This document shows positions 31,930 to 47,557 of a stretch of DNA of 51,823 nucleotides, in pieces. Each line of letters starts with the position of its first letter. Within the stretch, counting starts at the first letter, position 1. Below the pieces are notes generated by a model, which was not told where the DNA came from, searched no databases, and was given only the letters and a program-made list of their open reading frames with translations. Source of the DNA: Plectonema cf. radiosum LEGE 06105 (GTDB lineage: Bacteria > Cyanobacteriota > Cyanobacteriia > Cyanobacteriales > Nostocaceae); NCBI RefSeq assembly GCF_015207665.1, contig NZ_JADEWL010000033.1, forward strand, positions 1 to 51,823. Reading direction: 5' to 3'. The translations under genes and the position numbers were made by a program.

Positions 31930-32895
31930 TTAAGAAGCTCCGACAGATGCAGGTTTTGGTAACGATGGTAATGTCGAAACAGGATTGGACGTAGAAGCCG
32001 TAGTTGGTTCGACTGCTCCCATAGCTGCTTCTCCTACCATTCTCGCTACTTCAATACCATATTGTTCCAGAATAACAATCGGTTCGGAACCTTCATTCAT
32101 TTCAATTCTTTTAACAAGTAGTCCACTCGCTAATCTTTGTCCTGCTTGAACATACCGGCTAGTAGGTTCTGTAGGTACTTTAATGATGGCTTGGGGTTGA
32201 CTCCCGACTTGAATTACCCCTGAAACCAAAACGGCTTGAGCTAATGTTGGTTGCGGTGGTGGTGGTAATACAGATGCAAGGTCTGGTTGTGGTATCACCC
32301 CAGGCATTACTCTAGGTATAACCCCAGTTGGAGTTATAGTACCCCCAGAATTGGGTTTCTTAGCCGCTTGTTTCGGTATTTGTGTTGAATTTACCCTGGC
32401 TGAATTAGAATTTACCTTAGTATTCCTTCCCTGAGTAGCTGCATAATTACGGCTTCGGCTTCCTTGAGCAGTCGCGGAAATCACCGCACTTCTCCTGGCT
32501 CTTGATGCAGTATTTCTACTGGATGTTCGTAAAGGAGGCAACGCCGGAACAGTTCTTTGTTGATTGTTATTCTCAGTATTATTACTAGCTGTATTTGTAC
32601 GAGTAATTACAGGAGAAATAATATCGTCAAAGGGGTCGGTACGTCCTTTGGCGACTATTCCTACTCGTTCTGTAGGATTAGTGGTTTGGATTAAAGTCGA
32701 AGGAGCCTGAGCAATAACTCTATCTGTTTTCCCAGGCACCACAGGGTCTTCAAAAGGTTTCGGTTTCTCGCTTTGGTCGTTTTCTGTTGTTGTGGTGGGG
32801 GTCGGTTCAACAGTTTGTTGTTCCTCTTCACCAGAACATCCGGCGATCGCCAAAGCTAATATAGATGCAATTGTGATTGTTAAATGTCTACCCAT
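31930..32895 (-). CDS. Lipoprotein with PilP-like C-terminal domain
   Basis: The 321-aa protein has a signal peptide ending LAIAGC (lipobox), a long disordered Ser/Thr/Asn/Pro-rich middle (about 25-215), and a conserved C-terminal beta domain of about 75 residues: AVLVSGVIQVGSQPQAIIKV, YVQAGQRLASGLLVKRIEM and IVILEQYGIEVARMVGEA. That pattern resembles the PilP family, which links inner- and outer-membrane parts of the type IV pilus. The likeness is inferred by eye. Its neighbour sigF is known to control pilus genes in cyanobacteria, which fits. It is cotranscribed with the 81-aa gene. Confidence 0.6.
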   Translation of the reverse strand: MGRHLTITIASILALAIAGCSGEEEQQTVEPTPTTTTENDQSEKPKPFEDPVVPGKTDRVIAQAPSTLIQTTNPTERVGIVAKGRTDPFDDIISPVITRTNTASNNTENNNQQRTVPALPPLRTSSRNTASRARRSAVISATAQGSRSRNYAATQGRNTKVNSNSARVNSTQIPKQAAKKPNSGGTITPTGVIPRVMPGVIPQPDLASVLPPPPQPTLAQAVLVSGVIQVGSQPQAIIKVPTEPTSRYVQAGQRLASGLLVKRIEMNEGSEPIVILEQYGIEVARMVGEAAMGAVEPTTASTSNPVSTLPSLPKPASVGAS

Positions 32896-34922: not shown

Positions 34923-35762
34923 CTATGATACTGGTTCAACGCGAGCGTAAAATAAGCCGCGAACTTTCACTTCCAAGGGTTCACCAGCACCCAAGTCAGT
35001 ATCTGAAGGCTGTTCGCTGACAAAAGTACCAGCAATTTCACCACTTTCACTATCAACTTTGGCTACATTCAAAGAAATCTTACCGCTACCACCTTCAACA
35101 CTCTTAACGTTGGCACGTCTGAGTTCTTCTTTATCTGCTTGGGAAGGTAGGGCAATTGCATTATCATAACCACTTGCAACACCGCGACCTTTAGGATCTA
35201 AGAAAGTTGCACCACGGTAAGAAGGAACTTTAAAAGTTCCTTCAAAATCGGTTGAGGTATTAATGCTGGTTAAATTAGGCTGGCTTTGAGCAACCAAATT
35301 TTTCACAGTAAATAAGAACGGAACTTGTTCTCCACCTGGAAGCAGTACGGTAATGGCTTGAAAGTCAAGACCATCTTTTTCCTCAAAAGTCAAGCTACCA
35401 TCTGGATTAACTTTCAAATCACCTTGAATTTGGTCGAGAGATGAAGTTTTACGAGTCAACATTTTCGCACCAACAAATTCAGCTTCTTGTCTTTTGTTAA
35501 CTGGTTCTTCTTTAACAAAGAAACTGGTAGGTTCCATGCAAAGTTCTTTGATCACGTAAGACTGGTTTGGATCGATGGCGACAGAACCACGGCTTGTCTC
35601 TGAAAGTAAAGGACATTTGTTCGCTAAGCCAGTACCTCTAATCTGTTCATAGGTAAGTAATTCTCTAGGATTACTACCACTAGCTATATCTGATTGGCTG
35701 CAAGCTGTTAATAAGCCCAACACTACAGCCATTAATCCAACTATTAAAGCGCGATACCTCAT
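34923..35762 (-). CDS. psbO: Photosystem II manganese-stabilizing protein
   Basis: PsbO is the lumenal extrinsic protein that stabilises the oxygen-evolving Mn cluster. It has a signal peptide with a Cys at its end (GLLTACSQ) and the family markers LTYEQIRGTGLANKCP and SYVIKELCMEPTSFFVKEEP; these two segments supply the conserved disulfide cysteines. It also has GGSGKISLNVAKVD and GLFYARVEP at the C-terminus. I chose the ATG at 35760-35762 (MRYRALIVG), preceded by TGAGG, giving 279 aa; an upstream TTG would add six residues. The gene is monocistronic with its own terminator. Confidence 0.97.
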   Translation of the reverse strand: MRYRALIVGLMAVVLGLLTACSQSDIASGSNPRELLTYEQIRGTGLANKCPLLSETSRGSVAIDPNQSYVIKELCMEPTSFFVKEEPVNKRQEAEFVGAKMLTRKTSSLDQIQGDLKVNPDGSLTFEEKDGLDFQAITVLLPGGEQVPFLFTVKNLVAQSQPNLTSINTSTDFEGTFKVPSYRGATFLDPKGRGVASGYDNAIALPSQADKEELRRANVKSVEGGSGKISLNVAKVDSESGEIAGTFVSEQPSDTDLGAGEPLEVKVRGLFYARVEPVS

Positions 35763-36623
35763 GGTTAACCTCAATGTCAAAAATTAATATTTTCAGTTGT
35801 TAAACCAAAAAAAGTTAGATGTACCCAAAGTTTTTACTTTAGCTACTAAGCACATCATCAACTTTAATTAGGATATGCTAAATTATCCTGTTCGTAATTG
35901 CTTTTTATCAAATCCCAAAGCAACCTAATTTTTACATAACATCTCGACTACCATCTTAGTCAGATGCTTGTAACAAGTAAATAAAGGACTTTTGTGGCTT
36001 TATTCTCTGTAGTTAGCTCAGCAATCTGCCAACAGCCAACACAAACTAGATGTTTTTTATAGTTATGTTATGATGGCAAGTTTTTATAGTTCTCCTTTAA
36101 CAACGTTGATTATCAAATTTGGTATTGATTGAGTTAATCTCATTCTCCTACAATTTTGTACTACCAGAAAAATTTATATCCAAAATTATATCCTTATTAA
36201 AGTTTTATTTTGCAAATAAATAGCTTCTCAGTGCCGATGTTCAACAATCCCTATTTGATTGCACATCACACATATCACCTCGATGTATTTATCTCTCGCT
36301 GATTTATACATTTCTTAACATTGAGAAAATCTGCTGAAAATTTGCATTGTATTGATTAATCTTTAAATTCAGGCTTGACAAAATAACATTTATATACTCC
36401 TAAAAAATATGTTTCTATCTTTTTTGATCGAAAAAATGTTGCAAAATATTAAGAGTTTTGCAGTAGTAGCTAAAGACATCACAAGTTGAGATAAATAGGC
36501 TTGGTATTTTTAAAAAAGTGTTTTTTAACTTTAGGATTCAGCCTCGAATTGCTATAGTTATCCAAAGTTATGCTTTGTCTTTCGTCACGAATATTAGGGT
36601 AATTATAATTAGCGGATAATACT
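35763..36623. other. Long AT-rich gap upstream of psbO
   Basis: An 861-base gap between divergent psbO and the 103-aa gene. It is AT-rich throughout and has no STRR array, no inverted repeat of note and no ORF I would call. The psbO promoter must lie within the first couple of hundred bases, but I cannot fix the boxes. Confidence 0.5.
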
Positions 36624-36935
36624 ATGAGCAAAAATAAAAATCCCGATCGCGATCAGCTGCCTTACAAATTGCAAGAAATTGCGGATTACATACACGAATA
36701 CTCGACGGTTTGTCAAGGGGATATTTTAGAAATTTTAGGATTGCTTAGACAGTTAGAAAAATTGCATCGAGAAATTAGAGACGGTATTTTTCAAGAAAGT
36801 TTACCATCAAATCGTCAGGCATTATACTCACTGTTAAAAGACATTGAAGCAGAAGGAGGCTGGCCTTATATTGAGCGGATGAGGATTCAAGCCTTGATGA
36901 TTAATTTAGAAACTATTGCCGAAGAAGATAGCTGA
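36624..36935 (+). CDS. Conserved cyanobacterial protein (103 aa)
   Basis: A soluble, helical 103-aa protein: LPYKLQEIADYIHEYSTVCQ, ILEILGLLRQLEKLHREIRD, LYSLLKDIEAEGGWPYIERM. I recall relatives in other filamentous cyanobacteria near psbO but know no function. It has no membrane segment. The start contains the overlapping HIP1-like CGATCGCGATC. Its promoter side faces psbO; downstream it converges on the large WD40 gene across two small palindromes. Confidence 0.65.
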   Translation: MSKNKNPDRDQLPYKLQEIADYIHEYSTVCQGDILEILGLLRQLEKLHREIRDGIFQESLPSNRQALYSLLKDIEAEGGWPYIERMRIQALMINLETIAEEDS

Positions 36936-37165: not shown

Positions 37166-40100
37166 TTAGCTAATACCTTGACAAAGTTGGCGATCGCCAG
37201 CATCGACATTGCGGTTGTATTGGAGATAATCACCCACCCAGTGACAACCGCGTACTAGTAGATTCTCCAAATCTAAATTCCATAGGATGATTGTACGATC
37301 ATCGCTGGCGGATGCTAAAGTTTGACCGTCGGGGCTAAAGCTAACATCTAATACTGGGGCTTGATGTTCGCTGAGGCTTTTAATTAACTTACCTTCACTA
37401 CTCCAGAGTTTGACAGTACTATCCCAGCTAGCAGCAGCGAGAGTTTCACCATTAGGACTAAAAGTCACAGCACTAACGCTATCTCCATAACCTTTCAATA
37501 AAGTTTTTAATAAAGTACCATCCCAACGCCATAGCCTCACAGTATTATCCCAGCTAGCAGAAGCAAGCAAGTTATTACTAGGACTAAAACTGACACCTAA
37601 CACCCAGCCAGAATGAGGTAAAAACGTTTTTAATAAGGTACCATCTCGTCGCCATAATTTTACAGTTTGGTCGTCAGAACCAGAAGCTAAAACTTGAGAA
37701 TCAGTGCTAAAACGGACACTATTTACCCTTGCTTGATGTCCCTTTAAAGTTTTGAGCAATTTACCTTGTTGATTCCATAGTTTTACCGTTTTATCGGTAC
37801 TAGCAGATGCCAATAATTGTCCATCAGGGCTAAAACTGATACTGGTTACGCTGTCGTGATGTCCGCCAAGTGTCTTGAGTAGTTGACCGTCTCGTTGCCA
37901 AAGTTTGATAGTTTTGTCATAGCCTGCTGATGCTAAGATTTCGCTGTTGGGATGAAAACTCACACTTGTGACTCGATCGGAATGTCCCAACAAAGTTTTG
38001 TAAAGACGAGTTTCAAACCCAGCGCTGGGAGATTGTCGCTGCCAAAGTTTAACCGTATTATCGCGACTGCTAGAAGCTAAAATTTTACCATTAGGACTCC
38101 AAGCAACACTTAGTACCCGGTCTTCATGTCCTTCTAAAACTGGTAACTTAGGAGGATTTAAGCTCCAAAGTTTGACAGTTTTGTCATAACTTGCCGATGC
38201 CAAAAATTTCTGATCGGGGCTGAATGAAACACTAGCTACAGCATCGCTATGACCTTTAAAAGTTTTCAGCAATTTACCATTGTTAACATCAATCAAATTG
38301 ATCGTCTTGTCATCTCCAGCGGAAGCGAGCTTTTCACCTGATGAATCAAAATTTAGACTCCAAATTGTACCGCTATGCTGCTCTAAATTGCGATAAGCAC
38401 GGTATATGAAGCTGTTTACACCGTCTTTTTGTTCGCTTCGCCAAAATTTGATCGTACCATTGCGATCGGCCGAAGCTAATATTCCACCGTCAGGACTAAA
38501 ATTAGCAACAGTTACCCCTTCCTGATGACCTTGTAAAGTAGTTAATAAACTGCCATCAATTCCCCATATTTTCACTGTGTTATCATCGCTAGCTGAAGCA
38601 ATAAATCGACCATCGGGGCTGAAAACTACCCAATTGATCCAACCTTGATGTCCCCGGAGAATTTTGATTAATTTACCGTCACTGCTCCAAATTTTCACCG
38701 TTTCATCTTTACTTCCGGTAGCCAATAATTTACCATCAGGACTAAAGCTAACCTTATCTACCCAATCTCCGTGACCGAGAGTTTTGAATGGTTGCCAATC
38801 AAATTCTTGTGTAGCGGGATTTTTGCGCCAAATTTTTACGGTTTTATCTCGACTTGCAGAAGCAAGCAAACCGCCATCGGGACTAAAAGCTAAACTGGTA
38901 ATACTTTCTTCGTGACCTTGTAAGGTTTGTAATAATTTACCATCAGTGTGCCAAATTTTTACAGTTTTATCGCGACTTCCCGACGCTAATAACTCACCAT
39001 CAGGACTGAAAATTACATCCCAAACAATATCACCATGTCCTTCTAAACGGTTGACTTCCGTTACTCCATAAACCGCTTGCTGTAAAGCCGTGACGACTCG
39101 CATTCGGGTATCTGGCTTAATTCCGTATCCGCGTTTGAGCTTTCTCCAAGCACGTAAACTTTCGACTAAAGCATCAAATTCTTTGTTAGAGGCAAATAAA
39201 GCTTCAGAAGCGGCAGTCAAAGCACTAATTTGTAGGTTCGTTTCGCTACGTTCTGCTCGTAAACTTTGACTAATTGCAGCTTTCTTTTGTAAGTCAGCTT
39301 GCCACCATAATCCCCCAATACTAGCTGACATCACCGCTAAAGCAAAACCTGCTAAACGTGCTTCTCGCAGCCGGCGTTGAAGTATAGAATTTAGCTTTGC
39401 CTGCGAGCGCTTTTGAGCAACTTCTGCAATAGTCTTCTCAAAGCGGACTTTTTCTAATTCGACAGTAATTCCATAATCATTGCGATCGCGAATTGGTTTG
39501 ACTAAATAATCATGAACTAACTGATAACGTTCTCCTGACTCTTGGAGTACTCGCAATACCAAACCGTTTCCAACGAGGATTTCTAAAATTAATTCTAGGG
39601 TACTAAGATTGTAAGAATGCATCAAGCCATGATATTCTTCTGGGATTATCTCTAGACTTTCTCCATCGCTACCCATAGATTGCTGACTTAATATAGAAGC
39701 TATTTCTTTGGGTTGTTTAAACAATTGAGAAAAAGTAGAATTTACCCTTTGATTTACTACAGATAAAACATCTACTTGAGAAATTTCCCGCTCTTCTAAA
39801 CAAGCCTCTTGTTGACGAAAAATGATGGTAACTAATTCAGCTTTAGTTTTTAACGGTCGCGTACCTTTTTCATCAGTTAATTCAAACAGTAATTTCCAGC
39901 TTAATTGTTCGTTTTCTTGACCGCAATCAAATATAACTTTTTCTAACCAATGCTGCACTAATTTTTCCGAACCACCGCTACGTTGATATTCTGCGAGTGT
40001 AGTAATATTTTCTGTTTCTAATTGAGCGCCGACAATTTGTAATTCTATTGGATGTACTTGGTGAGTTTCTCCAGCTAAATCTTCTACCAATTTATTAATT

Positions 40101-42325
40101 AGTTCGTCGCTTAATTGATAATGAGAACGTTTAATTAGACTTTGGATAATACTAGTGGCATCTGTAGGGGAAAAATTACCTAAATAGTAACGAATATTTT
40201 TATCGAGAATATTTCGATTAATTACTCCCAAATCATAGTAATCTTCCTTAGTTAAATAGCTTAATCTCTCAAACTCTAAGAGATAATGTAGATAATCTTC
40301 CCGTAAAGAAATCAGAATTTTTACAAAAGGAATATTGAGACATTGAGTAAAAAATTTATAAAATTCGACTCTTTCGCTAGCATCATGCTTGACAAAGAAA
40401 AATTCTTCTAGCTGGTCAAAAATTAAAATAACTGTATAATTATTATCTGCTAACAATCTGAGTTTTTCTAAAATAATTTCAACTGTAATTTCTATTGCCA
40501 AAGAGATAGAAGTTTGAGCAATAACTTGGTTTAAACTGCGTCCTAAAGCTGTTACCCAATCGGTATAAACAGATAAAACAATTGGTAAAGCGATGCGTTC
40601 CCCAATAAAATTTTGTTTTAATACTGGAACTAAACCCGCTTTGATAATTGAGCTTTTACCAACTCCTGACGGCCCATGAACCACCGTCAATTTACAGTCA
40701 GCGCGAGTCATTTTTTCTAGAAGACGATAGACATCCTGCTGTCTTCCCGAAGCTGCAATCTCTTGGGCAACTTGTTCGGGAATTGATGAGATTTTTTGCG
40801 GTTGTAAAACTGGGTTGACTCTGTAACGCTGCGGTTGTAATTGACTCGCACCGATAAAAGCACGAAAACCATACTGATGCTCAATCTGAATCTTTTCTCT
40901 TTTGAGTTTAAACGCTTCTAAGTAATTGTGACGTTCACAAAAATAAAGAGAGCGTAATTCTTCAACAATTTCTAGATACAAACATGGTTCGTATTGAGCT
41001 TCACAAACCACTTTTGCCCATTCTAAAGTGTTAACAGCTTCGTCCCATTCACCCAAATTTCGTAAAGCGCGTCCAAGCAATAAAAGATACCAACTTTCTT
41101 GTTGACGAGACACTTCTGGCACTTCTTCAGCGATCGACAGAGCTATATTTGCCAATTCATGAGCTTGTAACCAATCCAATTTGGAAGCAGCCACAACACA
41201 AAGAAATCCGTAACCTTGAGCAATTAATGTTTTATTTCCAAATGATTGGTGTAATTCCAGCGAGTATGTTGCTAGTTGTGATAATTCGTCCCACTGTTGC
41301 AAAAATTGCAGCATTTCACAAGCAGGAAAAATAAATTTAGCGCTTAAATCTTTTCTGTTTTTTGTTTCAAATATATCCAAACATTGCTTAAACCAATTTA
41401 AAGCATTTTGCCAGAAGCTAATATTGGCAGCAGGTTGTAAATCCGCTAAGCGTCGGTAACATAATCCTAAATGGAACATCACTACTGCTTGGTGGATTAG
41501 AGGATGGGGAGACAAGGAGGGGGGGGGAGAGTTGGTTTTAATTTCTTCTTCCCAAAGTTCTAAGCTGCGTTGATAATGAAATAGTGCTTCGTCAATGTTG
41601 TCGTTAACATAGTTATCGCGCCCAAGTACAAATTCCAGACTTGCTTCTAATTGTGGTTTTAGCTTGATGTTGTAAAGACGAAGTAAATCGTTACGTGCTG
41701 ATTCAATTTCTCGACGCTGCTGAGATTTGGGATCTAAAAGTAAAGCCGCATTTGATAAAAATTTTTGCGCTCCTGCATCTATAACTTTGTCAAATAAGGA
41801 TTGTGTTTGCTGTTGGATCAAATTAACTAAATCATCCGCAGCCATTTCAAATTTAATTGTCGTTGCTGCCCAACTTTTAAAATCGGGTGCAAACCGCGAA
41901 AGTGATGTTCCTACTTCATCTTTGAGCCACAAAACTATCGGAAAAGCAAAGGTATCGGCGTAGATGTCTCTTGCTTGATTAACACCGCTGAGTAAGTCTT
42001 CTAAGTTTGTCACTGACTCTAATCCAAATACCATGACGGCAGTTGGTAAAGAATCTGTCTTGACTGCGGGTATATTCAAAAATAGTTCTGAGACTATGGT
42101 GCTGTGTAAAGCTGTGGTTGAGGGAGATAAAAATACTTCTCGCAAATTTACGTCTTTGGTTTGGGAGCGAATATTGTCTAATACTTGTTTGCACAATTCG
42201 CTGTAATTGCACCGTACTAGAATTAGAGAAAATTGACCACCCGAAAGCCCAATTGCCCGAATCAGTCTACGCAGAGTGTGTTGATTGGAAATTGCGATGT
42301 CCGTAAGACTTGTATTTTCACTCAT
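37166..42325 (-). CDS. Giant TPR - nSTAND1 NTPase - WD40 protein
   Basis: The 1719-aa protein has an N-terminal domain (about 15-185, LRRLIRAIGLSGGQFSLILVR onward, P-loop-less NTPase-like), TPR-like helices (about 230-490), and an nSTAND1-type NTPase (about 515-950): Walker A GPSGVGKSS near 551, Walker B VILIFDQLEEFF near 632, sensor ISLREDYL near 672, winged-helix end YQLVHDYLVKPIR. A hydrophobic helix lies near 991-1010. Then come 14 WD40 repeats (about 1095-1700), enough for two 7-bladed propellers. STAND proteins act as signal-triggered switches that oligomerise. The upstream same-strand ATPase (42454) is its likely partner. A Pro/Ser-rich insert at 266-278 is written in repeat-like DNA. 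Confidence 0.85.
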   Translation of the reverse strand: MSENTSLTDIAISNQHTLRRLIRAIGLSGGQFSLILVRCNYSELCKQVLDNIRSQTKDVNLREVFLSPSTTALHSTIVSELFLNIPAVKTDSLPTAVMVFGLESVTNLEDLLSGVNQARDIYADTFAFPIVLWLKDEVGTSLSRFAPDFKSWAATTIKFEMAADDLVNLIQQQTQSLFDKVIDAGAQKFLSNAALLLDPKSQQRREIESARNDLLRLYNIKLKPQLEASLEFVLGRDNYVNDNIDEALFHYQRSLELWEEEIKTNSPPPSLSPHPLIHQAVVMFHLGLCYRRLADLQPAANISFWQNALNWFKQCLDIFETKNRKDLSAKFIFPACEMLQFLQQWDELSQLATYSLELHQSFGNKTLIAQGYGFLCVVAASKLDWLQAHELANIALSIAEEVPEVSRQQESWYLLLLGRALRNLGEWDEAVNTLEWAKVVCEAQYEPCLYLEIVEELRSLYFCERHNYLEAFKLKREKIQIEHQYGFRAFIGASQLQPQRYRVNPVLQPQKISSIPEQVAQEIAASGRQQDVYRLLEKMTRADCKLTVVHGPSGVGKSSIIKAGLVPVLKQNFIGERIALPIVLSVYTDWVTALGRSLNQVIAQTSISLAIEITVEIILEKLRLLADNNYTVILIFDQLEEFFFVKHDASERVEFYKFFTQCLNIPFVKILISLREDYLHYLLEFERLSYLTKEDYYDLGVINRNILDKNIRYYLGNFSPTDATSIIQSLIKRSHYQLSDELINKLVEDLAGETHQVHPIELQIVGAQLETENITTLAEYQRSGGSEKLVQHWLEKVIFDCGQENEQLSWKLLFELTDEKGTRPLKTKAELVTIIFRQQEACLEEREISQVDVLSVVNQRVNSTFSQLFKQPKEIASILSQQSMGSDGESLEIIPEEYHGLMHSYNLSTLELILEILVGNGLVLRVLQESGERYQLVHDYLVKPIRDRNDYGITVELEKVRFEKTIAEVAQKRSQAKLNSILQRRLREARLAGFALAVMSASIGGLWWQADLQKKAAISQSLRAERSETNLQISALTAASEALFASNKEFDALVESLRAWRKLKRGYGIKPDTRMRVVTALQQAVYGVTEVNRLEGHGDIVWDVIFSPDGELLASGSRDKTVKIWHTDGKLLQTLQGHEESITSLAFSPDGGLLASASRDKTVKIWRKNPATQEFDWQPFKTLGHGDWVDKVSFSPDGKLLATGSKDETVKIWSSDGKLIKILRGHQGWINWVVFSPDGRFIASASDDNTVKIWGIDGSLLTTLQGHQEGVTVANFSPDGGILASADRNGTIKFWRSEQKDGVNSFIYRAYRNLEQHSGTIWSLNFDSSGEKLASAGDDKTINLIDVNNGKLLKTFKGHSDAVASVSFSPDQKFLASASYDKTVKLWSLNPPKLPVLEGHEDRVLSVAWSPNGKILASSSRDNTVKLWQRQSPSAGFETRLYKTLLGHSDRVTSVSFHPNSEILASAGYDKTIKLWQRDGQLLKTLGGHHDSVTSISFSPDGQLLASASTDKTVKLWNQQGKLLKTLKGHQARVNSVRFSTDSQVLASGSDDQTVKLWRRDGTLLKTFLPHSGWVLGVSFSPSNNLLASASWDNTVRLWRWDGTLLKTLLKGYGDSVSAVTFSPNGETLAAASWDSTVKLWSSEGKLIKSLSEHQAPVLDVSFSPDGQTLASASDDRTIILWNLDLENLLVRGCHWVGDYLQYNRNVDAGDRQLCQGIS

Positions 42326-42326
42326 A

Positions 42327-42384
42327 ATCAGTTATCAGTTATCAGTTAACAGTTATCAGTTAACAGTTATCAGTTATCAGTCAG
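42327..42384. repeat. STRR block (CAGTTAT class)
   Basis: About eight units of CAGTTAT/CAGTTAA with 7-bp period lie in the 128-base gap between the two STAND-type genes. Confidence 0.85.
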
Positions 42385-42453
42385 CAGTAAAGAGCTTTAC
42401 TTGTTTCTTTTTACAAAGATACAAATAACAGCAAAGAATTGATGTTTTTTCTA

Positions 42454-43809
42454 TTAAGGAAAAGTTGCCGGAATCTTGTATTCGGAATTTTCCCAACCGA
42501 GGACTTTTTCGGTTTCTGCTAATGCCGGACTAATGCCAAACCACCTTCCTCTAACATCTCGGTATTCAAAAACAAACATACTCCGCAACAATCTTTGATA
42601 TTCAGATTCACCTTTGACTGTCTGCTGATTAACAACTTCATAAAGTAATTGCCATTCTTCATCGTCAATAGCCAAAAGTAAATCGTCGCGATAATCTTTG
42701 ATTACAGCTTCCAAACAAGAACGCTCGAAGGGGGGATCTTGTCGCTGCAAACAACTGTAAAGTAACCCTAATAAATTGCGGATATGACCGCCGCTGATGC
42801 GGCACAAACGGTCTAATGTTTCGCAACTATCGAATATTTCCGGAATCAATTTCAATCTAATATCGGCAGAAACTTCGGGAAATGCCCTTGCTAAAACCAA
42901 CTGACGTAACAGAGACATTCCCGCTTCAGAATCACCACCATCTCTTTGACGTACTAGTACCATCGGCAAAACTTTAGGAGCAATACCACCCCCCAAACGA
43001 TTTTTCAGCGTTTCATACTCACCAGAAAAAATCAACGCCAAAGGTATTGTGTAAACTACATGACATTTCAGCCGACGTAACTGTTCACCTCTGTCAATAA
43101 ACAGATATTCCGGTTGCGATCGCCCTGATGGCATCGGGCGCATATCAACTCTATCTAGATTGTCAATGATTACAACTATTCCTTTTTGTCCCCTCATTTG
43201 TAGCTGTTTGCTAGCTTTATCTAATACTTCTTCGTTAATCGCTTGCAAAATGCTATTTGTACGGGGTTCTAGATATTGCCTGAGTTGACAACGTAATTGG
43301 GGGCTATCTTTTGTTTTAGCGCTAATTTTGGCAATACCCAAGGAAAACTCGGCTTCTGCGGATAAATCTATGGGAGTTTGCAAAAAATCGCCAATTTCTC
43401 GAAATAAATTTGCAAAATAACCAGGCTTGAGTCTAATGTCGATCGCTTCTAAACTGACGCTGACTTGACGAGCTACACTCAGCAAAATATCGCTGACATC
43501 TATATCCGCCATATCTAAATCTTGGCTGGATTCAAAATAAACTACGTGAAATCCCGCTTCTTCTAATTCTGCTTTCAAACGTTGTAACTCAGTTGATTTA
43601 CCACAGCCAATATGACCTGTAAATAATTGACAAGTTGGTTCATCAGGAGAAATACGGACAATCGTTCGCTTCAATTCCTCGACTATTTTGCAACCCCGTA
43701 CCTCAGAAAAATCTATATAGTATCTTCTATCGGAATCATCACCCATCACCAAGGTTCTGCTCGGATTACAGGTTTTAAAAAACCTTGACAAATTTAATGT
43801 AGTTTTCAT
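42454..43809 (-). CDS. P-loop ATPase partner of the WD40-STAND protein
   Basis: A 451-aa cytoplasmic ATPase of AAA/STAND type. The N-terminus SRFFKTCNPSRTLV and RYYIDFSEVRGCKIVEELKR precede Walker A GHIGCGKST at about 65-73. Walker B is VVIIDNLDRV near 212-221, and CHVVYTIPLALIFS and LCRISGGHIRNLLGLLYS follow; the C-terminal part is helical. I chose the ATG at 43807-43809 (MKTTLNLSRFF); a TTG would add 11 residues. It precedes the 1719-aa gene on the same strand with a 128-base STRR-filled gap. I recall such pairs in other filamentous cyanobacteria, with no known function. A regulatory or anti-phage role is inference. Confidence 0.75.
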   Translation of the reverse strand: MKTTLNLSRFFKTCNPSRTLVMGDDSDRRYYIDFSEVRGCKIVEELKRTIVRISPDEPTCQLFTGHIGCGKSTELQRLKAELEEAGFHVVYFESSQDLDMADIDVSDILLSVARQVSVSLEAIDIRLKPGYFANLFREIGDFLQTPIDLSAEAEFSLGIAKISAKTKDSPQLRCQLRQYLEPRTNSILQAINEEVLDKASKQLQMRGQKGIVVIIDNLDRVDMRPMPSGRSQPEYLFIDRGEQLRRLKCHVVYTIPLALIFSGEYETLKNRLGGGIAPKVLPMVLVRQRDGGDSEAGMSLLRQLVLARAFPEVSADIRLKLIPEIFDSCETLDRLCRISGGHIRNLLGLLYSCLQRQDPPFERSCLEAVIKDYRDDLLLAIDDEEWQLLYEVVNQQTVKGESEYQRLLRSMFVFEYRDVRGRWFGISPALAETEKVLGWENSEYKIPATFP

Positions 43810-44516
43810 GTAGATGCACTTGATATAAATAATTACTATCAACCCCTACTTTCTAGGTATGGCTGATTTTTCCTTTCCCTGATGTTCCTAGCTCGTATTT
43901 GCCTTTTTATCCCGGATTAGGCAGAATTTTGCCAAAAAAAACGTAGTTTCAACTATAACCGGGGAACCCTGACCGCCTTTCTGCCCGCCGACTCGTTTGT
44001 ATTGAATCGCTTAATTGGTTTTTGGTATAAAAAAAATAATTTGTATAACTCCTTAATTTTTACTTAAGTATTAATTGTTGCAAACCATGCATATCATTTT
44101 TTTGAAAATACGTCAAGTCAACTAGATTCGATGTGGGTTTTTTTTGCCAAAAAGGAATAAATTAGTATTAGTTTTTCATGTAGTAAGCGTTGAGTGTGTA
44201 TAATGTGAAATTTAATTGTTGAGCGAATAACAAAGGGCGATTAATGTTTCAGAACAAGATATCTGTAACAGCGATGGTGATTTTCTCGGATTATTTGTAG
44301 CGATTTGGCTTGCAAATAAATGTCACTCTCAAGTAAAAAGGCTACATTAGAGCAAAAATACACGCCAATGATTTTGGTCTTTTTTTAGCATATTGTTATG
44401 GGATAAATTAGAGAAAAATGCTTGTCAAATAAATTACTGACCTTAACAGGTTTGCCTGAAACTAACTTATTCATCTTCATACAATAACTTGAAAAAAAAT
44501 GCATTTCGAGGTTTAA
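43810..44516. other. Gap before ftsQ
   Basis: A 707-base gap between the divergent ATPase and ftsQ genes. It is AT-rich, has no STRR array and no ORF I would call. It should contain both promoters. Nothing further is recognised. Confidence 0.5.
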
Positions 44517-45356
44517 ATGCCGGAAATATTATCAGTTTCCTCCACAGAATTGGCAGGTCGTCGCGAAAAACTCCGTCGCAACAGACAGATAAACATTATT
44601 AGCAAAATCTGGCGAACCTTGGCAATTACAGGGTTAGCGGGTGGCTTGCTATGGTTTTTGATTCAACCAATATGGGTAATTAAAAGCAAGAAAGATATTA
44701 CTGTTTCTGGAAATCAGTTATTCTCCGATGAAGTGTTACAGTCAAAAATTCCATTATCCTATCCCCAGTCTTTATGGCGAGTTGAACCAAGTCGTTTAAG
44801 TGCGTCTTTAAAGCAGCAACCAGGTATAACCGAAGCAACTGTAACTCGTCGTCTATTTCCACCGGGACTGATAGTCAAAGTATCCGAAATATTGCCTGTA
44901 GCGATTACTCAAACTCCTAGTCTTGAGGATACTAATTCTAAAAATCAAAAACCAGTAGAGGGATTAGTGGATATCAATGGTGTTGAAGTGACGACGGAAA
45001 ACTTCAAATCAATTCCCGCGAATAAATTACCCAGTCTCAAACTAATTGGTGATTTACAGCAGTGTCGTCCCTTCTGGAAACAGCTTTATCAACAAGTAAC
45101 TAACAGTTTAGTAAAGGTAATGGAAATTAATTGTCAAAACCCTACTAATTTAATTTTAAAAACAGAACTCGGAAGAGTACATATTGGAAATCCAACTTTT
45201 CAATTAGCGGAAAAAATCCAATTGTTAGCAAAAATTCGCCGTCTACCAGATCAAGAAAATATGAGCCAAATTGAGTTTATAGATTTAACAAATCCGGAAA
45301 GTATTTTAGTACAATTGAACCATAAAACAGTGAAGATTAACTCTCAAACTCCTTAA
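44517..45356 (+). CDS. ftsQ: Cell division protein FtsQ
   Basis: FtsQ/DivIB links early and late divisome proteins across the membrane. The 279-aa protein has a short cytoplasmic basic start, one membrane helix (about residues 32-52, LAITGLAGGLLWFLIQPIW) and a POTRA domain (about 58-125, ITVSGNQLFSDEVL, SLWRVEPSRLSASLKQQPGI, VTRRLFPPGLIVKV). The beta domain follows. It lies upstream of ftsZ with an 880-base gap, an arrangement found in other filamentous cyanobacteria. Confidence 0.92.
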   Translation: MPEILSVSSTELAGRREKLRRNRQINIISKIWRTLAITGLAGGLLWFLIQPIWVIKSKKDITVSGNQLFSDEVLQSKIPLSYPQSLWRVEPSRLSASLKQQPGITEATVTRRLFPPGLIVKVSEILPVAITQTPSLEDTNSKNQKPVEGLVDINGVEVTTENFKSIPANKLPSLKLIGDLQQCRPFWKQLYQQVTNSLVKVMEINCQNPTNLILKTELGRVHIGNPTFQLAEKIQLLAKIRRLPDQENMSQIEFIDLTNPESILVQLNHKTVKINSQTP

Positions 45357-46237: not shown

Positions 46238-47557
46238 ATGCACGTAAATCCAATGACACTTGATAATAACCAAGGGCTTACCTATAAAAACTCGCAGTCT
46301 CCCGGACAGCAAGGAATCTCCCTAGCAGGAATCAGTACCAATAACCCTTTTGGTCATTCTGGGCTGAGTTTAGGACAAAACAGCAATAACAACCATGCTC
46401 CCGAAGAAAATCCGATTGGGGATATCGTTCCCGGTAGGGTTGCCAATATCAAAGTAATTGGTGTTGGTGGTGGTGGTGGAAATGCTGTCAACCGGATGAT
46501 TGCTTCTGATTTGAGTGGAGTAGAATTTTGGTCGATTAACACCGATGCTCAAGCTTTAACCATGGCTGCGGCTCCTTGTCGTCTGCAAATTGGACAAAAG
46601 CTAACGCGGGGTTTGGGTGCGGGTGGTAATCCTGCAATCGGTCAAAAAGCAGCAGAGGAATCGAGAGATGAAATTGCAGCGGCTTTAGAAGGAGCCGATT
46701 TAGTATTTATCACCGCTGGGATGGGGGGTGGTACTGGTACTGGTGCAGCTTCGGTTGTGGCTGAAGTCGCCAAGGAAATCGGTGCTTTGACTGTTGGTGT
46801 AGTTACCCGTCCGTTTGTGTTTGAAGGTCGCCGTCGTACTAGTCAAGCCGAGCAAGGTGTTGAGGCTTTGAAAAGTCGGGTTGATACCTTGATTATCATC
46901 CCCAACAATAAACTTTTGGAAGTGATCCCAGAGCAAACACCCGTCCAGGAAGCTTTCCGTTACGCGGATGACGTATTGCGTCAAGGTGTACAAGGTATAT
47001 CCGATATCATCACTATTCCCGGTTTGGTAAACGTTGACTTTGCCGACGTGCGAGCAGTGATGGCAGATGCGGGTTCAGCTTTGATGGGAATCGGTATTGG
47101 TTCGGGTAAATCACGCTCTCGAGAAGCGGCGATCGCGGCAATTTCTTCACCTTTGCTGGAATGTTCGATTGAAGGTGCTAGAGGTGTGGTATTTAATATC
47201 ACTGGCGGTAGCGACCTGACTTTACATGAAGTGAATGCAGCTGCTGAAGCAATTTATGAAGTGGTAGACCCCAATGCCAATATTATTTTTGGAGCGGTGA
47301 TTGATGACAGACTCGAAGGAGAAGTCAGAATTACCGTAATTGCGACCGGGTTTACAGGTGAAGTCCAATCCCAGCAACAGCAAAGCGTTACCCCGAATAG
47401 TCGAGTAGCTCCACCTCCAGGACAGCAGCGACGGACAATGCCCCAACCATCATCAACAAGTGCTAGTTCTAATTCTCAAAAGCCAGTTGAACCCAAACAA
47501 AAACCTGGATTGGAAATTCCTCCGTTTCTTCAAAAACGACGTAATCCGAATAACTAA
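46238..47557 (+). CDS. ftsZ: Cell division protein FtsZ
   Basis: FtsZ is the tubulin-like GTPase that forms the Z-ring. The 439-aa protein has [19 protein letters not shown] near 70-88, the signature [10 protein letters not shown] at 161-170, [11 protein letters not shown], and the C-terminal binding peptide [11 protein letters not shown]. Before the core lies an N-terminal extension of about 65 residues starting [16 protein letters not shown], a peptide known to be conserved in heterocyst-forming filamentous species and needed for normal polymerisation. Relatives start at the second Met (46253); the ATG at 46238 adds five residues. Neither has a clear ribosome site. Confidence 0.96.

Follow-up and report, generated by a model that had tools for sequence, protein, structure and literature searches.

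The stretch of DNA analysed here, referred to below as the window, comprises positions 1 to 51,823 of contig NZ_JADEWL010000033.1 of the cyanobacterium Plectonema cf. radiosum LEGE 06105 (assembly size 7.6 Mb). Our subject is two adjacent reverse-strand genes, which encode a 451-amino-acid (aa) P-loop ATPase and a 1719-aa protein, here called the giant, composed of an N-terminal domain (N-domain), a TPR region, an nSTAND1 NTPase and 14 WD40 repeats (Table 1). An earlier reading made from the sequence only had described these two genes and placed them between psbO and a sigma factor gene on one side and ftsQ and ftsZ on the other; open reading frames (ORFs) and Pfam matches bear out the architecture, and profile matches bear out the flanks. 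The order is the sigma factor, psbO and a 103-aa ORF, then the two genes, then the divergently oriented ftsQ-ftsZ. Comparisons among cyanobacterial genomes show that the ATPase and the giant are a real pair, as the sequence-only reading had proposed, by their co-occurrence, their 1:1 and 2:2 counts, their co-divergence within genomes and a minimal operon.

Among 291 genomes of the order, 166 contain both proteins, 2 only the ATPase, 5 only the giant and 118 neither, with cuts of E < 1e-80 for the ATPase (168 genomes; the cut was picked after the match list was seen) and 1e-10 for the N-terminal 510 residues of the giant (171 genomes). With a looser ATPase cut of 1e-10, the counts are 169, 36, 2 and 84, respectively. 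At loci of the window's type, the pair is present in 78 of 80 records, and both misses lie within about 330 bp of a contig end; rare adjacency, which the earlier reading had named as an outcome against its pairing, is not what is seen. At other loci, at least 52 of 148 giants have an ATPase upstream among the matches listed, a lower bound biased towards close relatives. Samples spread by hand, not at random, over the remaining 98 ATPase and 96 giant matches listed were paired at 35 of 40 loci anchored on the ATPase and at 20 of 40 anchored on the giant. The two genes overlap in 27 of 76 pairs outside the 80 records, 12 of them by exactly four bases, and one locus (L271) is a minimal operon of an ATPase followed by a bare 158-aa N-domain.

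The pairing extends to numbers and to sequence divergence. Among 155 N-domain proteins with an adjacent ATPase (a set that excludes 24 at loci without one), 152 show a 1:1 ratio and two a 2:2 ratio, while one (L153) is split, its single N-domain being matched in two short pieces. Ratios of 2:1 or 1:2 were found in none of the 155, with a second upstream ATPase detectable (at least 1.3 kb upstream) in 111 of them but in almost none of the 35 ATPase-anchored cases. Distances among ATPases and among N-domains are correlated (Mantel r 0.63, 91 pairs, 0 of 2000 permutations). When ATPases were swapped within genomes, r was 0.61 compared to a null of 0.10 +/- 0.125 (0 of 5000; 14 genomes, 28 pairs), and because the swaps are confined to pairs of the same genome, species history is controlled for.

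The ATPase carries the Walker A motif GHIGCGKST and a Walker B motif, and a Walker A is present in 163 of 164 ATPases of the family. Its Pfam matches, to ATPase_2, KAP and AAA_22, are weak to moderate, and its sequence has no match in the PDB at E 0.01 and none in phage records. The predicted model (predicted local distance difference test score, pLDDT, 89.9) has a winged-helix-like C-terminal region and is closest to Cdc6/Orc1 structures, with a Pyrococcus ATPase, CED-4, Apaf-1 and a mitoribosomal chain, which we take to be DAP3, also listed; the template-modelling (TM) scores of the top 20 matches are modest, at 0.27-0.44 by query length.

The N-domain of the giant (residues 1-190 in the window's copy) reaches no Pfam family at its cut-off and finds nothing better than E 0.25 in PDB sequences. 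Its model (pLDDT 90.9, predicted TM-score 0.86) arranges its strands and helices in the order of a P-loop NTPase core, and its best Foldseek matches in the PDB are AAA+ proteins such as RuvB, Orc1/Orc2, RFC and Hda, from E 1.7e-4. A Walker A motif is found in 0 of 172 N-domains. Because of the P-loop-like model fold and this consistent lack of Walker A, we call the domain a putative P-loop-less, AAA-like decoy. Its origin as a diverged copy of the ATPase was considered and rejected, as a profile comparison shows no similarity between the two.

The nSTAND1 domain of the giant scores 98.9 bits against the curated profile PF20703 (cut-off 27.1), and an intact nSTAND Walker A follows the N-domain in 171 of 172 giants. 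The 14 WD40 repeats (PF00400, E 1.2e-168) are a multiple of seven, as in propellers; a blade profile derived from the window counts 14 blades in 69 of the 70 full-length orthologues, and blade i matches blade i best in 832 of 952 cases (68 orthologues). A fast-evolving or shuffled WD40 sensor was rejected, since mean identity is 0.715 in the WD40 region compared to 0.731 in nSTAND and the blades keep their identity. The segment AGFALAVMSASIGGLWW could possibly be a membrane helix, although the indication from hydropathy is weak: a mean of 1.6 is reached in 24 of 69 orthologues, and the window's value is below 1.36. Pfam and PADLOC scans detected no recognised effector domain in the window's copy. 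PADLOC gave no whole-protein defence match for the pair and no Avs model among its hits; its hits are HEAT-ARM_XIII, which covers a portion of the WD40 repeats, and ATPase or TPR models that match weakly.

Table 1. Features of the window around the ATPase-giant pair, with the two three-gene loci found in other genomes
Feature	Position	Strand	Basis or remark
Giant protein gene, 1719 aa	37166..42325	-	ORF, ATG start
WD40 region, 14 blades, two seven-bladed propellers by count	37265..39046	-	Pfam
Conserved hydrophobic segment AGFALAVMSASIGGLWW, residues 992-1008, after RRLREAR	39302..39352	-	
nSTAND1 NTPase, residues 527-831, Walker A GPSGVGKSS	39833..40747	-	PF20703
TPR region, about residues 206-510	40796..41710	-	Pfam
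N-domain, residues 11-189, modelled P-loop NTPase-like fold without Walker A	41759..42295	-	
Spacer between ATPase and giant, 128 bp	42326-42453		
P-loop ATPase gene, 451 aa	42457..43809	-	ORF from ATG at 43809
ATPase ORF with longer TTG start, 462 aa	42454-43842	-	
Intergenic region between divergent ATPase and ftsQ genes	43810..44516		707 bp; no strand
ftsQ, divergent neighbour in several families	44517..45356	+	POTRA_1 profile
ftsZ	46238..47557	+	profile match
103-aa ORF between pair and psbO	36624..36935	+	
psbO	34923..35780	-	MSP profile
321-aa ORF adjoining sigma factor gene	31930-32895		without Pfam match
Three-gene 2:2 locus L158, chromosome of genome G071	498-7798 of L158		
Three-gene 2:2 locus L232, Calothrix NIES-4101 plasmid	8995-16502 of L232		

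The history of the psbO-ftsQ copy was examined in its relatives. At 45 of 80 loci, those in which all genes were found, mean pairwise identity is 0.870 for the ATPase, close to SigF (0.871), FtsZ (0.889) and PsbO (0.822), and 0.739, 0.731 and 0.715 for the N-domain, nSTAND and WD40 regions, with FtsQ at 0.648. Identities in the same set correlate with those of FtsZ, PsbO and SigF at 0.967 for the ATPase and 0.87-0.93 for the domains of the giant. psbO and ftsZ lie within 20 kb of each other in 101 genomes of the window's family (in 17 further genomes they are apart, on separate contigs, or one of them is unlisted). The site is filled in 63 of the 101, with an orthologous ATPase between psbO and ftsZ and a gap of 9.2-13.3 kb, and empty in 38, with a gap of 1.8-6.0 kb; the orthologous ATPase was found elsewhere in none of the 38 empty-site genomes. 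On a tree of FtsZ and PsbO (80 of 100 loci, those with both proteins found), filled and empty sites cluster, requiring at least 7 changes compared to about 18 in shuffles, a measure that counts changes and not their direction. Empty sites are nested among filled ones, and remnants of the giant were found at 2 of 20 empty sites (L293 and L295), the 20 having been picked from the 38 to spread over genera. Because of this nesting and these remnants, the locus is best read as ancestral and repeatedly lost. Universal presence of the pair at this site, the other outcome that the earlier reading had named against itself, is not seen, with 63 of 101 sites filled. A mobile island at psbO-ftsQ was rejected on the clustering of filled and empty sites and the remnants.

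The link to ftsQ-ftsZ extends beyond the window's family. Among 20 loci chosen from other families, six of them already known to touch ftsQ, both ftsQ and ftsZ are next to the ATPase in 14, ftsQ alone in one and neither in five; psbO, which adjoins the pair in the window's family, was found beside it in none of the 20. Of 150 genomes listed for FtsZ, 88 are also listed for the ATPase, and in at least 59 of these 88, a lower bound again biased towards close relatives, the ATPase is less than 7 kb from ftsZ. It is divergent from ftsZ in all 59, which represent eight family codes among the matches listed; selected loci add two further families, f9 (G056) and f28 (G083), the former with one ftsQ-linked genome despite a listed count of 0 of 8. 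The ftsQ-linked ATPases are close together on the ATPase tree (6 changes compared to 27 in shuffles), with labels set by hand and some loci classed as other ending too near a contig edge. No conserved third gene was detected among 105 loci with short flanks and neighbours that were not profile-scanned, where the commonest extra neighbour is ftsQ itself (6 loci).

While the core of the giant is constant, its tail is exchangeable. Of 75 full-length giants (L122-L201), 53 have 14 WD40 repeats, six have none and the rest have 7-21. One giant (L173) ends in a TPR array, and in another (L256, 2938-7098) the N-domain, TPR and nSTAND1 regions are fused to a PAS-HisKA-HATPase-receiver hybrid histidine kinase, behind an ATPase of its own. 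The two 2:2 loci, L158 and L232, have a three-gene form: an ATPase, an ATPase-TIR fusion (696/697 aa; PF13676, E 1.2e-31 and 1.5e-33) and a giant whose N-domain is present twice in tandem. This form is rare (2 of 119 family genomes), and the two TIR-ATPases are 49% identical, so both loci may share one origin. The C-terminal tail of the fusions presumably resembles effector-associated adapter domains. By analogy, a constant switch with swapped tails is the pattern shown by signalling systems, and, as the TIR fusion shows, some branches extend to chemistry known from cell death; a role in defence or conflict is plausible for the plasmid, TIR-bearing and accessory copies.

These results lead us to propose, as a reasonably probable reading, that the two genes encode one STAND-type signalling switch in which the ATPase docks on the decoy domain. 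They look like one switch because relatives mostly keep both, with one ATPase per dead domain, often back-to-back with ftsQ. The ATPase would be the active motor, and a single ATPase would dock on the P-loop-less N-domain, a contact suggested by the co-occurrence, the 1:1 and 2:2 counts and the co-divergence; the interface is probably that of subunit stacking in AAA+ proteins, ORC and the apoptosome. Docking would set the state of TPR-nSTAND1, where the TPRs and the intact NTPase would form a second switch, and the C-terminal module, here two WD40 propellers, may sense the signal, scaffold it or pass it on. Activation could take place by oligomerisation, by analogy with other STAND proteins. 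For the window's copy, a standing cellular housekeeping or stress signal is, from its context, most likely and favoured over a recently acquired phage defence, because the ftsQ-linked copy is old, vertically inherited and repeatedly lost; judging from gene position, the signal is perhaps tied to division or the cell wall. The sequence-only reading had suggested a regulatory or conflict pair. Its pairing holds, and the P-loop-less N-domain would be a natural docking partner of the ATPase. For this copy an accessory conflict system is not supported: it has a long history of vertical inheritance, strong conservation and frequent proximity to ftsQ-ftsZ, and the links to conflict (the TIR fusion, plasmids) were found in paralogues.

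Several observations weigh against the proposed switch and its cellular role. The fold of the N-domain is model-based, with query TM-scores of about 0.40-0.46 and a large root-mean-square deviation; thymidine kinases also match the model (E 1.7e-3 and above), and its profile lacks similarity to that of the ATPase. At the looser cut, 36 genomes have an ATPase-like match without a giant. An ATPase neighbour is missing from half of the giant-anchored loci sampled, and the locus itself is lacking in 38 of 101 relatives. Among the matches listed, 29 of 88 genomes have no ATPase near ftsZ, with linkage in 16 of 24 genomes of family f1, 1 of 3 of f27, 0 of 8 of f9, 0 of 2 of f21 and 0 of 1 in each of f5, f15 and f22, and gene order near ftsQ could merely be inherited. 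The most sceptical explanation is that the proteins are separate neighbours in an ancient operon, with an N-domain that has no connection to the ATPase and is simply a common kind of protein-protein module. The unpaired giants, the dissimilar profiles and a family of about 165-aa stand-alone N-domains living without an ATPase agree with it, but the genome co-occurrence, 2:2 counts, within-genome co-divergence, overlapping genes (four-base overlaps included) and the minimal operon make it very improbable.

An NLR-like antiviral or abortive-infection system, in which the WD40 propellers would sense a phage product and oligomerisation of the NTPases would be followed by death or arrest of the cell, has more in its favour and is still rather unlikely. 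It would account for the nSTAND1 and WD40 architecture with variable C-terminal modules, the TIR on the same ATPase family in L158 and L232, the repeated losses of the locus and the plasmid copies, one of them between tyrosine recombinases beside HicA/HicB genes; two-gene STAND conflict systems are also predicted in the excerpted parts of PMC8195603. This copy, however, lacks a recognised effector domain and gave no defence system in PADLOC, its neighbours are housekeeping genes and its descent is vertical, its ATPase is conserved like SigF and without a match in phage records, and its blades keep their identity. A narrower version of the signalling switch, compatible with it, makes the ftsQ-linked copy a division or septum regulator of filamentous cyanobacteria. 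The divergent ftsQ-ftsZ linkage in eight family codes and the two added families, together with SigF-level conservation of the ATPase, point in that direction, but the argument is one of position, and many lineages lost the pair yet kept psbO and ftsZ, which leaves us doubtful of it. More speculative, and a little less likely again, is that filamentous cyanobacteria have domesticated a two-part NTPase switch resembling the apoptosome and use it as a divisome-wired checkpoint. The ATPase/decoy complex would then gate an NLR-shaped WD40 sensor back-to-back with ftsQ, and stress signalling and defence would fall to the histidine-kinase and TIR paralogues.

Searches of an open-access library turned up no account of the pair. 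The fold of its ATPase model resembles those of Orc1/Cdc6, CED-4/Apaf-1 and, if we identify the chain correctly, DAP3; it differs from them in having no PDB sequence match, and no link to DNA, caspases or ribosomes was seen. Avs (antiviral STAND) proteins combine a STAND NTPase and a repeat sensor with an N-terminal effector. The pair shares the first two, whereas the N-terminus of the giant appears to be a dead NTPase-like domain and PADLOC reported no Avs model. As regards MoxR-vWA ternary conflict systems, whose constant partners are a MoxR ATPase and a vWA protein, the ATPase matches ATPase_2, KAP and AAA_22, and ftsQ is the commonest extra neighbour, in the short flanks, not profile-scanned, of the 105 loci. 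Like the nSTAND1 and ternary conflict systems of multicellular bacteria, cyanobacteria included, described in part in PMC10907252 and PMC7159879 as NTPase switches with C-terminal sensor-like modules, the pair has such a switch and module; the excerpts of both papers make no mention of a constant ATPase partner with a P-loop-less N-domain. The excerpt of PMC5587647 reports no conserved WD40 gene neighbourhood across 7 cyanobacteria.

Closest is the nSTAND2 two-gene operon (eLife 2021, PMC8195603), for which the parts of the paper covered here predict a hetero-ring of an active and an inactive STAND, note that ORC likewise mixes active and inactive subunits, name GT4 or HEPN as the most common variable modules and call the operon mobile. 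As in that operon, adjacent genes would combine an active STAND-like ATPase with an NTPase of eroded motifs on variable modules, the dead module being recognised here at the level of a fold model. In contrast to the operon as excerpted, our pair has a short dead domain, behind which come TPRs, a second and intact nSTAND1 and usually WD40 repeats, and the copy in the window has been fixed by vertical descent next to ftsQ. Pfam hits for the pair include no nSTAND2 model, the presence of which in the library was unchecked, and those of seven giants (window, L173, L254, L256, L158, L232 and L238) include no GT4 or HEPN effector. The nearest published kind is the active-plus-inactive STAND two-gene system, from which this pair departs in its dead domain, in having another, intact STAND switch and in its fixed place in the genome. 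Many cyanobacteria hold several copies of this constant core of ATPase, P-loop-less N-domain and TPR-nSTAND1 with an exchangeable tail, one of them kept long beside ftsQ-ftsZ. With such a core and a one-ATPase-per-decoy rule that can be counted, what inactive NTPase domains do in STAND systems is open to direct test.

Several variants occur elsewhere. L146 (498-3443) encodes a single 981-aa protein in which the ATPase is fused to an nSTAND1-like domain. On pREC1, a conjugative plasmid of Acaryochloris marina (L233), a pair of this kind lies between two tyrosine recombinase genes beside hicA/hicB. Stand-alone N-domain proteins of about 160-170 aa, without an adjacent ATPase, were found at L257-L270, L272 and L273, and a single clade takes in 13 of the 17 included in the tree. 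The genome with the minimal operon (G136; L255 and L271) is a 3.8-Mb single contig with no match to psbO or ftsZ, and because of this its assembly may be partly missing or masked. The genome of the window itself has three ATPases of the family and four N-domains. On contig C71 an ATPase precedes a giant cut by the contig end, C87 has an ATPase beside a magnesium-chelatase gene, a WD40-less giant lies at the end of C103, and C106 carries a stand-alone N-domain (L268, 4968-5468). Close counterparts of the C87 ATPase and the C103 giant are neighbours in the sister genome G272 (L197).

As to the window's other features, the closest named relatives are Richelia, Rivularia and Calothrix records, one with an ATPase 98% identical. 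Many aligned ATPase relatives begin within a few residues of the ATG at 43809, and the length of 451 aa is for this reason probably correct. The sigma-70 factor was recognised by profile, its name sigF being the label of the sequence-only reading. The 103-aa ORF has no Pfam family. Most filled loci whose flanks reach far enough contain it, as does each of the 20 empty sites inspected, and it is therefore not part of the pair. The 321-aa ORF beside the sigma factor gene is also found there in many relatives, and the spacer between the ATPase and the giant contains short tandem repeats of the ACTGATA/ACTGTTA type.

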